Shown: positions 34,279 through 43,238 of the stretch, in pieces
Layout of the letters: every line of letters begins with the position of its first letter
Position numbering within the stretch: position 1 is the first letter of the stretch
Assembly: GCA_022750055.1 (NCBI GenBank)
Contig: JAKIWL010000005.1
Coordinates: forward strand, 1-61,842
DNA from: Thermoplasmata archaeon
GTDB taxonomy: Archaea; Thermoplasmatota; Thermoplasmata; Lutacidiplasmatales; UBA184
Direction of reading: 5' to 3'
DNA length: 61,842 nucleotides
Program-made: the position numbers and the translations under genes
Notes under the pieces: model-generated
What the model was told of the DNA's origin: nothing
The model's database searches: none
What the model saw: only the letters and a program-made list of their open reading frames with translations

Positions 34279-34740
34279 CTATTTCACCACGACGAACGCC
34301 CGCATCGTCCCGTGGAATTGTCCGCAGAACTCCGTGCACTGGACGAGGTATTCGGTCCCGGCCGCGGCGTTGGGGATACTGAAGGCGATCGAGTTCATCC
34401 GGCCGGGGATCGCGTCGAGCCGGATCCCGAGCGCCGGAACGTTGAAGGAATGGACCACGTCCGTGCTCGTGACATTGATCTGGACCACCGTTCCGGGTTC
34501 GACCCACATCGCCCCGCCGGTCTCGGTGTTGTTCACGGCGTTGTAGGTCGTATTGTCGCACGTCCCGTTGGCGGGATAGCAAAACTCCCAGTACCACTGG
34601 TGTCCGATCACATTGACATACTCGTCGACGTGGCTGGGCGTCCTGTCGACATTGTAGAGGAGGAAGGTCGAGTAGACCGCGACGCCGGCGATGAGGCCGA
34701 CGGTCGCGAGGGTCCAGGCGACCTCGAGTCGGTTAACCAT
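34279..34740 (-). CDS. coxB: Cytochrome c oxidase subunit II, second helix plus CuA domain
   Basis: Protein of 153 residues. RLEVAWTLATVGLIAGVAVYS is the second transmembrane helix of subunit II. The periplasm-side cupredoxin domain includes IGHQWYWEF, VVHSFNVPALG and CTEFCGQFHGTM, giving both Cys, both His, Glu and Met ligands of binuclear CuA. The first membrane helix of a normal subunit II is missing and is encoded by the preceding overlapping gene, so subunit II is split. It accepts electrons from a cupredoxin and passes them to subunit I. It is convergent with the cupredoxin gene on its 3' side. Confidence 0.9.
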   Translation of the reverse strand: MVNRLEVAWTLATVGLIAGVAVYSTFLLYNVDRTPSHVDEYVNVIGHQWYWEFCYPANGTCDNTTYNAVNNTETGGAMWVEPGTVVQINVTSTDVVHSFNVPALGIRLDAIPGRMNSIAFSIPNAAAGTEYLVQCTEFCGQFHGTMRAFVVVK

Positions 34741-34990
34741 ACCGCCTCTTCTTCGTGGCCGGGTCCCGGAACTTCCACAGGGCGTAGGCCATGACCCCCC
34801 AGGTGATGATCGCCCCGGCGACGGAGATCGCGAGCATCACCCAGATGAGCGGCGTGGTCTGGGCGAGGTTCGTCGGCCCGGCCGAGGCGCTCCCGAAGGC
34901 AGCGAGCACAGCCGCCCCACTGGCCCAGGTCGAGAGGCCGCGGGCCAGCGTACGGAGCCGCACAAGGGGTACCGATGGGACTCGGTTCAT
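34733..34990 (-). CDS. Small membrane protein equal to the first helix of oxidase subunit II
   Basis: An 85-residue protein with an N-terminal signal-like segment ending around AFGSASAGP and one strong helix, TPLIWVMLAISVAGAIITWG, ending in ALWKFRDPATKKRRYG. The helix followed by a K-F/Y-R turn is the end of helix 1 in oxidase subunit II, and the next gene resumes exactly at helix 2. The two frames overlap by eight bases (ATGGTTAA), suggesting coupled translation. ATG 34990 was chosen; a start at 35023 is possible. A sequencing frameshift in a single gene is the main alternative. Confidence 0.75.
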   Translation of the reverse strand: MNRVPSVPLVRLRTLARGLSTWASGAAVLAAFGSASAGPTNLAQTTPLIWVMLAISVAGAIITWGVMAYALWKFRDPATKKRRYG

Positions 34991-35122
34991 ATCGGCGGCG
35001 TACGAACCGGATCCCAGACGCACCCGCGCGGTCGGTCCGCGGGCGCGCTGAGAAAGTACGAACGGAATGGCTTTGAACGCCCCCCGGGTCGTCCGTCGAG
35101 GTCCCGTCCGGGTTTCGGCGTC

Positions 35123-35848
35123 ATGGCCGGCAGTCTCCGCATGGCAACCACCCTAGGCCTTGCCCTGACCCTACTGAGCTGGGCGTGGGTCGGAGGGGAC
35201 ATGATCGGTTCGGCACCCGCCCGCCCGGCCCTGACGACCAGCGCCTCGACGGTGGACTGGATCAATGTGACGTTACCGGCCGCTGCCTTCGCCTTCACGC
35301 TCACGAGCGCCCCTCTCCCGGCAGCCGAGATCACCCCCGGGAACGTCGTCCACGTACGGGTCCTGCAGCTCAGTACGACGGCCCACACCTTCACCCTCTC
35401 ATCCACAACGAACTACCAATTCCCCACCACCGATGCCACCTCCGACCTGCAAGCGTACTTCGGCTCGCATCCCCCCCTCGTCGATCTGAACGTGAGCGGT
35501 TCGATGGGACTCATCGTCTACGGAAACTTCACCGCGCCGCCGATTGGGGAGTACGAGTACGTCTGCCTCGCGAGCGGGCATTTCGGATATGGAATGTGGG
35601 GCGTGCTGGGTTCGGGCGAACCGGGCACGGGGGCGGGTTCGGCGCCGTACAACGGACCGGGTGCGCCGGTCTTCGTCATCTCCGGCACGATCACGGCCCT
35701 GGTAATCATCGCCCTGGTGCTGGGTTTCGTCGTCGGAAAGAGGCGTGGCTCCTCGGACGAGATGCCCCCTCAGCGGTTCGGATATCCTGAATCCAGCCTC
35801 TCTTCCTCCACGCCGGCCGCGCCCCCCCTCGGAGAGCAAAAGAGGTAA
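35123..35848 (+). CDS. Membrane-anchored single-domain cupredoxin
   Basis: About 241 residues. An N-terminal hydrophobic signal or anchor (TTLGLALTLLSWAWVGGD) precedes one cupredoxin domain. Copper ligands are the His in TTAHTFTL and Cys/His/Met in YVCLASGHFGYGM. A C-terminal helix (VFVISGTITALVIIALVLGF) and a charged, proline-rich tail follow. It is transcribed divergently from the split subunit II genes and resembles domain 2 of the cupredoxin upstream, so the two may be alternative electron carriers in place of cytochrome c. ATG 35141 is another possible start. Confidence 0.83.
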   Translation: MAGSLRMATTLGLALTLLSWAWVGGDMIGSAPARPALTTSASTVDWINVTLPAAAFAFTLTSAPLPAAEITPGNVVHVRVLQLSTTAHTFTLSSTTNYQFPTTDATSDLQAYFGSHPPLVDLNVSGSMGLIVYGNFTAPPIGEYEYVCLASGHFGYGMWGVLGSGEPGTGAGSAPYNGPGAPVFVISGTITALVIIALVLGFVVGKRRGSSDEMPPQRFGYPESSLSSSTPAAPPLGEQKR

Positions 35849-40915: not shown

Positions 40916-41174
40916 CGACCCTTCGAGCGCCCCGTACCGGACCGGCTGGCTCTGGATCGTGCTCGCGTTCTTCCTCCTGATCGGGACCGTCGGCTCGGCC
41001 TTCGTGGTCTACGGCTTCCTCGGAGTGCTCAACGGCCGATGGTTCCCTGAGCTCCCGCTCGGCATCGTCGGCGGGTTCGTCGCCGTGGTCTCTCTATTGC
41101 TGCTGACCGGGATGCTCTACCGGGCCGACCGATTGCGCGGGGTTCCCCACCGGGAGGTCGCGCTCTTTGAGTGA
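40908..41174 (+). CDS. Small two-helix membrane protein after cytochrome b
   Basis: An 88-residue protein with two hydrophobic helices, WLWIVLAFFLLIGTVGSAFV and LGIVGGFVAVVSLLLLTGML, joined by a short loop and followed by a charged tail. GTG start inside the end of the cytochrome b gene. The family is not recognised. Its tight overlap on both sides points to a structural or assembly role in the quinol oxidase chain. Confidence 0.72.
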   Translation: MTSDPSSAPYRTGWLWIVLAFFLLIGTVGSAFVVYGFLGVLNGRWFPELPLGIVGGFVAVVSLLLLTGMLYRADRLRGVPHREVALFE

Positions 41175-41538
41175 CGTCACCGACTACGGCGACCCTGCAC
41201 GCGCGCAGGCGACGGTGCTGCGCCTGTACCAGACGATCGCGATCCTGATGCTCCTCGTCATCGGCGCCCTCGCGCTCTATAGCTTCCGCCTCGGGCCGCT
41301 CGTCGGCCCCGGCGTGGAGCAGTCCTTCGGGATCGCGGTCTCGATCATGTTCCTGTGCGGCACCCTTCTCTTGCACCTCGTCGACCGGACCTACCGGGTC
41401 TGGCCGGAAGGGCGACGCGTCCACCCCCCGGTTCCGGCGGTGGTCACGGACCGGTCGATCGCGTTCGCCCTGAAGCTCTTCCTCGTCGTCCTCGTCGGTG
41501 CTTCGATCGCCTACGTCATCGCGACCCTGGTGAGCTAG
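41167..41538 (+). CDS. Three-helix membrane protein before oxidase subunit I
   Basis: A 123-residue protein. Helices are [37 protein letters not shown] and [20 protein letters not shown]. The start is a TTG overlapping the end of the preceding gene by eight bases; no ATG or GTG in frame gives a better N-terminus. The stop lies within the ribosome-binding region of subunit I. No known family is evident; a small subunit (III/IV-like) of the oxidase is possible from topology and position only. Confidence 0.68.
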
Positions 41539-41552: not shown

Positions 41553-43238
41553 ATGAACGACCTCACCGGGCCGATCGCGGAGATCGTCCTCCTCGTCGCG
41601 CTGGGATCGTTCGGGATCGGCCTGCTCACCTACAAGGGGGAATGGTTCGTCCGAATGGCCCGGACCTGGCTCTTCACCACCGACCACCAGCGCATCGGCC
41701 TGATGTACATCGGCATCGGCATCCTGTTCTTCTTCATCGGAGGGGTCTACGCCACCCTGATCCGGACCGACCTCGGCGTGTTCCAGGGTCTCGGACTCGA
41801 CCCGCAGACCACCCTCGGGATCACGCCGGACGTCTACTCGACGCTGTTCACCATGCACGGGACGTTGATGATCTTCATGTTCATCATCCCGACCCTGGCC
41901 GGGTTCGGGAACTACCTCGTGCCATCGATGATCGGCGCCCGGGAAATGGCCCTCCCGAGGATCAACGCGATCGCGTTCTGGATGCTCCCGCTCGCCGGGG
42001 CGTTGCTGATCTTCTCGAACGCGAACGCCGGTTGGACCGGCTACGTCCCACTGTCCCTCCAGGTCGACCCATCGAACCCGTACGGGATCGACCTGTGGGT
42101 CCTCGGATTGCACATCCTGAGCGCGTCGTCGATGCTCGGCGCGATCAACTTCATCGTCACGATCATCAAACATCGCGCGCCCGGCGTCGAGTACTGGAAC
42201 ATGCCGCTCTTCGTCTGGTCGACGTTCATCAACTCCATCCTGCTCCTCTTCGCCCTCCCGTCGCTCTCGATCGCGATCACGTTCGTGCTCTCTGACCGCA
42301 ACTTCGGGACCCACATCCTCGCCGCCGCGAACGGGACGCCGCTCGGTGGGGCGCTCCTCTACCAGAACATGTTCTGGTTCTTCGCCCACCCCGAGGTCTA
42401 CGTCATGGTCCTGCCCGCGTTCGGCCTCATCTCGACGATCATCCCGAAGCTCGCCCGCAAGGACATCTTCGGGTACGGGGCGATGGTGATCGCCCTGTGC
42501 GTATTCGCCGTGCTCTCTTTCGCCGTCTGGGAGCATCACATGTTCACGACCGGCATCTCGACGGACGTCCGGTTCGTCTTCATGCTCTCGACCATGGCGA
42601 TCGCGGTCCCGTCGGCGGTGAAGACGTTCAACTGGATCGCGACCCTCTGGGGCGGGAAGATCTGGATGGCCGTGCCGATGTGGTTCTCGATCGCCTTCAT
42701 CACCGGGTTCGTCATCGGCGGCCTATCGGGTCTCCTGCTCGCCTCGATCCCGATCGACTACCTGTACCACGCGACGTACTTCGTCGTCGCCCACTTCCAT
42801 TACGTCGTGCTGGGCGGGTCGATGATGGCGATCTTCGCCGGGGTGTACTTCTACTACCCGATCTGGACGGGCCGGTGGTATAGCCAGCCGCTCGCCCACG
42901 TTCACTTCCTCCTCTCCTACGTGGGCGTGAACCTCCTGCTCTTCCCGATGTTCATCCTCGGGGCGGAGGGGATGCCGAGGCGGGTCTACACGTACCTTTG
43001 GACCGGGAACTTCCAGGCCCTTAACTTCCTCGCGAGCCTCGGTGCCTTCGTGCTCGGGATCGGTCAGCTCTTCTTCGCATTCAACATGGTCTATTCCTAT
43101 TACGCCGGTCGACCCGTCCGCACCCCCGACCCATGGGGCGACCCGACCCCGAGCGACAGCCTCGGACCGGTCCCCGCCGCGCACCCCGTTCCGGTGGGGA
43201 CCCCGACGATCGGCGCCGCCCAGGACGGGTCGGCCTGA
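41553..43238 (+). CDS. coxA: Cytochrome c oxidase subunit I (heme-copper oxidase, A1-type)
   Basis: Protein of 561 residues with twelve core helices plus an extra N-terminal one. [12 protein letters not shown] holds a heme a ligand. [14 protein letters not shown] carries the CuB His, the cross-linked Tyr and the D-channel Glu of A1-type enzymes. EHHMFTTG has the other CuB ligands, and [13 protein letters not shown] the remaining heme ligands. [20 protein letters not shown] matches the D-channel entry. It reduces oxygen to water and pumps protons. Subunit II is encoded 7 kb away on the other strand; no subunit III gene is present. Confidence 0.96.

Follow-up and report, generated by a model that had tools for sequence, protein, structure and literature searches.

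Cytochrome oxidase subunit II as a pair of overlapping genes, divided between helix 1 and helix 2, in Thermoplasmata archaea

In the Thermoplasmata archaeon whose DNA we analysed here (a stretch of 61,842 nucleotides, called the window), subunit II of an A-type cytochrome oxidase, a core part of this oxygen-consuming respiratory enzyme, is encoded by two overlapping genes, one for each of its membrane helices. This split pair is very probably an inherited trait of a group of soil archaea rather than a sequencing error. We consider it very likely that the genes yield two polypeptides, coupled by termination-reinitiation, that form a three-chain core of subunits I, IIa, and IIb.

The gene pair and its conservation

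The initial annotation had described an 85-residue gene and a second gene overlapping it. We verified the reading frames, the lengths of 85 and 153 aa, the octamer ATGGTTAA, and all of the quoted peptides. The features of the pair are as follows.

34733..34990, minus strand: part 1 ("IIa"), an 85-aa protein with a probable signal peptide and helix 1 of subunit II; tail KFRDPATKKRRYG
34279..34740, minus strand: part 2 ("IIb"), a 153-aa protein with helix 2 and the CuA domain of subunit II
34733..34740, minus strand: the 8-nt overlap ATGGTTAA, with the part 2 start codon and the part 1 stop codon
34880..34990, minus strand: probable signal peptide of part 1, ending ASA before G, by inspection of the sequence
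34775..34849, minus strand: helix 1, about residues 48 to 72 of part 1, from hydropathy
34648..34731, minus strand: helix 2, residues 4 to 31 of part 2, as predicted
34723..34725, minus strand: Glu6 of part 2; counterpart in the alignment, Glu78 of mature Paracoccus subunit II
34303..34338, minus strand: CuA motif CTEFCGQFHGTM, from sequence and alignment

The start of part 1 is ambiguous: the listed ORF has 96 aa from a GTG at 35023, and the ATG at 34990 gives 85 aa. In the putative signal region, AxA precedes [GQ]-x-T/S-N-L-Q in several relatives of part 1 and is absent in others. The initial annotation placed the break by two landmarks, the K/R turn that follows helix 1 and the L-E-x-x-W-T of helix 2, and both are right.

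Part 2 matches Pfam COX2 (PF00116) with an E value of 2.1e-20 and model positions 54 to 191 of NCBIfam CoxB (TIGR02866) with an E value of 4.9e-34, the latter under the curated cut-off. The CuA ligands had been proposed to be intact, and indeed the full set (H, C-x-E-x-C, H, and M), represented in part 2 by H97, C135, E137, C139, H143, and M146, is invariant in a 52-row alignment. An AlphaFold2 model of part 2 (pLDDT 93.4) has a helix at residues 4 to 31 followed by cupredoxin strands. The closest PDB structure is 7atn_B (E value 5.2e-13), the sequence of which is that of Paracoccus 1ar1_B. Part 2 is predicted to consist of a helix and a cupredoxin domain, resembling subunit II structures.

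A search of the same genus matched part 2 in 50 of 60 relatives at an E value of at most 0.001. The match in one of them (G016) is weak and lies within a 913-aa frame; a close CuA half is present in 49 same-genus relatives and in the window's own genome, and no match to part 2 was found in ten of the 60 same-genus genomes searched, which are 56 to 88% complete. The open frames of the 50 close CuA-half matches are 157 to 211 aa long (30 were inspected as sequence). Whether relatives share the split had been named initially as a check, and the 8-nt overlap is present in 51 of 56 non-redundant loci with at least 40% identity to part 2, a stop codon and a new start standing where a single polypeptide would read through. 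The remaining five comprise four loci with separate genes (L066, L068, L071, and L073) and one ordinary full-length gene (L085). The last, at 44% identity and from another family, is the only one of the 56 with the uninterrupted frame that the initial annotation had said would speak against the split; the full-length genes of the class fall outside the split clade.

The junction itself was compared in 57 distinct loci, gathered with a search pattern into which an 8-nt overlap with G as its third base was already built. Besides the window's own genome, this set draws on 30 genomes of the same genus, 5 of the same family, and 21 named records (20 labelled Thermoplasmata and one "bacterium"); the pattern missed L026 and L104, both with the same 8-nt overlap. 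Part 1 ends in YG in 47 loci and HG in 10, with the stop codon TAA in 40, TAG in 11, and TGA in 6, and part 2 starts with ATG in 55. The other two loci, L048 and L138, have ACG in place of this ATG with frames otherwise intact, for which sequencing error, a rare start codon, or a tolerated loss might account.

Part 1 as helix 1 and the case for two proteins

Part 1 matches positions 8 to 44 of TIGR02866 with an E value of 0.0014, far under the cut-off. Alignment of both proteins with full-length subunit II had been suggested as a check, and the two halves do match adjacent stretches of this model (8 to 44 and 54 to 191), indicating that they are consecutive, non-repeating parts of one family. 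Among 47 part-1 proteins from the 57 loci (all but P0002, the window's part 1, taken as their last 45 residues), 43 match TIGR02866 at an E value of at most 0.1, the best at 2.5e-4, and the next family is matched by 3 of the 47. Because a single helix is weak evidence, the similarity of part 1 was tested several ways. A blind search ran a helix-1 model from 19 bacterial full-length proteins against the 8931 ORFs of the archaeal loci; four full-length CuA proteins came out on top, others of that kind ranked lower, and 11 of the first 20 hits were part-1 ORFs, the best of them with an E value of 0.26. In profile comparisons, part 1 matched part 1 of the separate-gene type (see below) at 1.3e-7 and bacterial helix 1 at 1.1e-3, or 1.2e-4 in the reverse direction, versus 0.03 to 0.61 for six decoy profiles, two of which consisted of one sequence each. 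One decoy, though, was matched by the bacterial helix-1 profile at 0.0024, and against a crude profile of archaeal full-length N termini part 1 gave 0.078. Pfam did not recognise the window's part 1 as subunit II (its best hit was LapA_dom, E value 0.0028, under cut-off), and the part-1 profile found no subunit II among PDB sequences at an E value of at most 1. In all 57 loci, helix 1 is followed by a tail of 13 residues with a mean net charge of +4.4; from this charge we infer the normal outside-to-inside polarity of helix 1. Both helices of a two-helix subunit II are found, on two chains.

The codons at the junction bear on how part 2 is started. The T of its ATG occupies the third position of a Tyr/His codon in part 1. 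This codon ends in T in 55 of the 57 loci, compared to 13.6% of Tyr/His codons (108/792) in the rest of these genes (binomial 3e-45, with no correction for relatedness). For comparison, eight Tyr/His positions in part 2, all of them occupied in 40 or more of these sequences, have T in 4 to 34% of cases, and the one such position in part 1 has it in 3 of 56. Relatedness alone therefore fails to explain the retention of the ATG, and since T is kept against codon preference, the part 2 ATG is most simply read as being retained for initiation. The gaps and other phases seen in clade-mates agree with separate initiation of part 2. Further, the spacing of the two genes, −8 in 51 of 56 loci, lies within the range of −8 to about +10 nt associated with termination-reinitiation. 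According to PMC10666635, genes for subunits of heteromeric complexes are over-represented among pairs spaced by −8 to +10 nt in Haloferax and E. coli, and passages there and in PMC6728339 take such spacings as predictive of termination-reinitiation and enriched within one complex.

Programmed +1 frameshifting at GGT-TAA, the second possibility in the initial annotation, would instead fuse the two frames into one normal subunit II. A read shifted by one base does yield the canonical motif [Y/H]GN[RK]xE..WT, the phase of the overlap is constant within the window's 8-nt type, and L048 and L138 have kept both frames with ACG for ATG. Frameshifting needs no ATG, however, and yet the ATG stands in 55 of 57 loci despite the codon preference; the stop codon varies (TAA, TAG, and TGA in 40, 11, and 6 loci), clade-mates show gaps or other phases, and no slippery run was seen at the junction on visual inspection. 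The dispensable start and conserved phase of a frameshift gene are thus not what these loci display, the two with ACG being exceptions, and we consider frameshifting unlikely. An assembly indel or a recent pseudogene is exceedingly improbable: a one-base difference would give the same appearance, but the same overlap recurs in 51 of 56 loci across many assemblies, the CuA ligands are unchanged through 52 rows, and part 2 is the sole subunit II found in its genome. The shared overlap and its conservation make chance or error untenable as the origin of the split.

Another very unlikely reading makes part 1 a small accessory subunit of unrelated origin and has part 2 work with one helix, as in B-type oxidases. 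Similarity over one short helix is intrinsically weak, and subunit IIa of B-type oxidases occupies the same place with opposite polarity and with no sequence similarity reported in the pertinent part of PMC3128077. Against an unrelated subunit, 43 of 47 part-1 proteins match the subunit II model at the correct end and in the correct order, the profile match to bacterial helix 1 (1.1e-3 and 1.2e-4) surpasses those to the six decoys (0.03 to 0.61, with one decoy matching the bacterial profile at 0.0024), and the positive tail implies normal polarity. We favour two coupled polypeptides. That subunit II is genuinely divided between its two helices is supported by the conservation of the split across species and genera, by the adjacency of the halves on one model, and by a genome (94% complete) in which no other subunit II was found.

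The oxidase, its gene neighbourhood, and the proposed assembly

The genome contains one CuA protein by PF00116 and one subunit I by PF00115. The lone PF00116 match argues, at a completeness of 94%, against a second full-length subunit II hidden elsewhere, and with one CuA subunit and one subunit I, the pair should serve the sole heme-copper oxidase. Subunit III (PF00510) was not found in the genome with a model that detects 9 of 14 controls. The following genes in the window accompany the pair.

41553..43238, plus strand: subunit I (cox1); PF00115 E value 3.4e-141, the single match in the genome
33160..34215, plus strand: two-domain cupredoxin flanking the pair; PF00127 E value 1.6e-4; beside the pair in relatives
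35123..35848, plus strand: rusticyanin-like cupredoxin with a C-terminal helix, divergent from part 1; TIGR03095 E value 1.4e-5, under cut-off; beside the pair in relatives

Against TIGR02891, cox1 scores 586 bits (cut-off 670.75). Its sequence has HPEVY together with histidine and Lys motifs, which we take to be the heme and CuB histidines, the HPEVY element, and the K-channel lysine motif. The partner subunit I is of the A type, and the section of PMC9287336 on these genes assigns all coxA of the phylum (Thermoplasmatota) to A1. Genes for Tat, Rieske, and cytochrome b proteins adjoin the pair in each of the 10 loci compared (six of the overlapping and four of the separate type). The same gene neighbourhood is described in PMC9287336, which names the AcS isolates and UBA184, both among the loci compared, and on this basis the window's family probably belongs to the Lutacidiplasmatales; the description there treats the order's coxB as one gene beside six unknown proteins, five of them with membrane helices. 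The cox1 gene is present in all three loci long enough to include it (L170, L171, and L172).

Several further observations concern this neighbourhood. At what is presumably the D-channel entrance motif, cox1 of the window reads GAREMA, with Glu where the bacterial and most of the archaeal sequences compared have Asp (GAPDMA, GAKDMA); the motif reads GAKEMG in L172 (8-nt type, of which two sequences were compared) and GSKDMA in L171 (separate-gene type). Positions 41167 to 41538 encode a 123-aa membrane protein with no Pfam match and a weak NCBIfam one (rusticyanin, E value 0.083). In the three relatives with enough sequence to show it, its gene separates those for cytochrome b and cox1, and the protein is a candidate extra subunit of the oxidase or bc complex. 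In some same-genus relatives, frames of 913 to 948 aa (L167, G037:C16; L168, G016:C103) that by eye resemble an additional heme-copper-oxidase-like protein hold a weak subunit II-like match of 28 to 33% identity. L169 (G010:C18) is a 369-aa membrane protein with, by eye, a C-terminal cupredoxin-like domain and a degenerate CuA-like CFAPCGTGM.

The inter-helix loop of full-length relatives offers a view of the break site. Ahead of LE..WT, L101 and L078 have HGN in this loop (CAC GGC AAC in both), L086 has HGS, L099 has HDR, and the proteobacterial L072 and L077 have HST and HHT. Part 1 ends in [Y/H]G and part 2 begins M-V-N, with N as the third residue in 34 of 57 loci. Judged from these residues, the break falls between HG and N of the loop and adjoins a glutamate that we take to belong to the K channel. 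Glu6 of part 2, invariant in 52 rows, is paired by phmmer with residue 78 of the mature Paracoccus protein (1qle_B), presumably the K-channel entrance glutamate; if so, the new chain ends would adjoin the entrance of this channel. The split likely originated when one T was added in the HGN codons of a normal coxB, changing CATGGTAAC to CATGGTTAAC. Such a base would at once make a stop after HG and open an out-of-frame ATG in CATGG (ATG-GTT-AAC, M-V-N), and genera g34 to g36 would later have lengthened both new ends.

We propose that subunit II of the sole heme-copper (A-type) oxidase would be made as two polypeptides. Part 1 would supply helix 1, running outside to inside and probably after cleavage of its signal peptide, and part 2 would supply helix 2, running inside to outside, together with the CuA domain. 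Ribosomes finishing part 1 would start part 2 at the 8-nt overlap of this short two-gene unit, and such coupling would yield matched amounts of the two parts. According to the data on overlaps in PMC10666635, a −8 overlap reinitiates less efficiently than shorter ones. Both chains would pack on subunit I at the normal sites of the subunit II helices, giving the three-chain core (I, IIa, and IIb). The presence of separate proteins in the cell, their topology, coupling, and assembly, and the activity of the enzyme are what we infer from the genes.

Distribution and relation to known oxidases

A class-wide search gave a CuA-domain match in 155 of 350 genomes. Within the window's family (f1), the search matched 20 genomes from other genera; 19 were examined, and G254, with a 63-aa frame, was left out. 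Genera g33 and g37 have the 8-nt overlap type (9/9), genera g34, g35, and g36 have two separate genes (7/7), and genus g32 has a different full-length subunit II (3/3). The separate genes of g34 to g36 are spaced by gaps of 3, 4, or 6 nt or overlap by 4 nt, their phases differ, and the tails are longer on both sides of the break; L127 and L129 have a 4-nt overlap between the halves. Long Pro/Ser/Ala-rich tails are found at both new ends of L124, L133, L134, and L137 (genus g36), as free chain ends might have. In two CuA trees, the 8-nt and separate-gene types form one clade (support 100/98 and 100/97), and the nearest full-length sequences, L099 and L101, are its weakly placed sister (85/49). 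A phylum-wide search matched 137 of 294 genomes. The matches listed outside the class lie in open frames of at least 214 aa, the size that would be expected of full-length genes, except for G422 and G489, which start at a contig end.

A second type of split is present at 16 loci (L145, L149 to L153, and L156 to L165) in families f19 and f31 and one f11 genome, which probably represent the Thermoplasmatales and their kin. Here the gene for a short CuA subunit with one helix comes after that for a two-helix protein, which has about 82 aa in most loci. Like the window's pair, these have a small membrane protein gene just upstream of a one-helix CuA subunit; unlike it, they have an extra N-terminal helix, mostly a −4 overlap, and cox1 directly downstream. 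The genes overlap by 4 nt in 11 of the 16 loci and by 8 nt in 2, and are spaced otherwise in 3, the start used for L163 being an unlikely one. A cox1-like ORF of 544 to 597 aa lies directly downstream in the 13 second-type loci inspected, and L173 was confirmed by tblastn. The second helix of the ~82-aa protein matched part 1 in hhalign with E values of 4e-6 and 1e-6, versus 0.005 to 0.29 for decoys; against bacterial helix 1 the same helix gave 0.01, no better than decoys. The CuA tree places the second split type apart from the window's type. With a 61-row tree, however, a single split clade is not rejected (AU p value 0.547), the constrained tree being 1.30 log units better. A single ancient fission in the inner loop would imply an inherited, possibly shared three-chain A-type design in two Thermoplasmata lineages, a counterpart to B-type IIa; we put this forward tentatively and regard it as rather doubtful. 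If true, the mouth of the K proton channel would gain two new, charged chain ends, which could alter proton uptake.

The pair shares with A-type subunit II (CoxB/CtaC, TIGR02866) the CuA ligands, the predicted cupredoxin fold, the LE..WT helix 2, and helix 1 with its K/R-F-R turn, and a remnant of the HGN loop is present here. A-type subunit II is one polypeptide, whereas the window's pair is two overlapping genes. B-type (ba3) oxidases, as in Thermus and Aquifex, resemble the pair in having a three-chain core in which a single-helix subunit (IIa) accompanies a one-helix CuA subunit. Subunit IIa differs in its opposite polarity, whereas part 1 is helix-1-like, has a probable normal polarity, and accompanies an A-type oxidase. 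The pertinent part of PMC3128077 reports, from a preliminary analysis, no similarity of B-type IIa to the helices of subunit II, describes its opposite polarity, and names inter-helix fission as a possible origin; it also gives a P-x(1-3)-G-T/A motif for most, though not all, B-type IIa. By eye, this motif was not found in the window's part 1, and we judge it unlikely that part 1 is a B-type IIa, given the absence of the motif together with the polarity argument from the charged tail.

Split mitochondrial cox2 genes (chlorophycean algae, alveolates, and Campsomeris/Dielis wasps) likewise give two complementary polypeptides. They break between the membrane and cupredoxin regions, whereas the pair here breaks before helix 2. 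Passages of PMC5664110 place the break of all split cox2 cases known to its authors between these regions, i.e., behind helix 2, and the wasp case is described in PMC5374615. Thermoplasmata oxidases are discussed in PMC3750248 and PMC8239418, with a split subunit II unmentioned in the sections concerned. We found no report in the open-access literature searched of a split between helix 1 and helix 2 of an A-type subunit II.

For annotation, the pair serves as a warning: its CuA half does not reach the CoxB cut-off, and the gene for helix 1 goes unrecognised. As the break adjoins what we take to be the K-channel glutamate, these enzymes would be natural tests of the function of this loop. If inter-helix fission has been stable across archaeal genera, helix 1 could be a free subunit in an A-type enzyme. 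This bears on the origin of B-type IIa, for which fission or fusion is considered in parts of PMC3128077.
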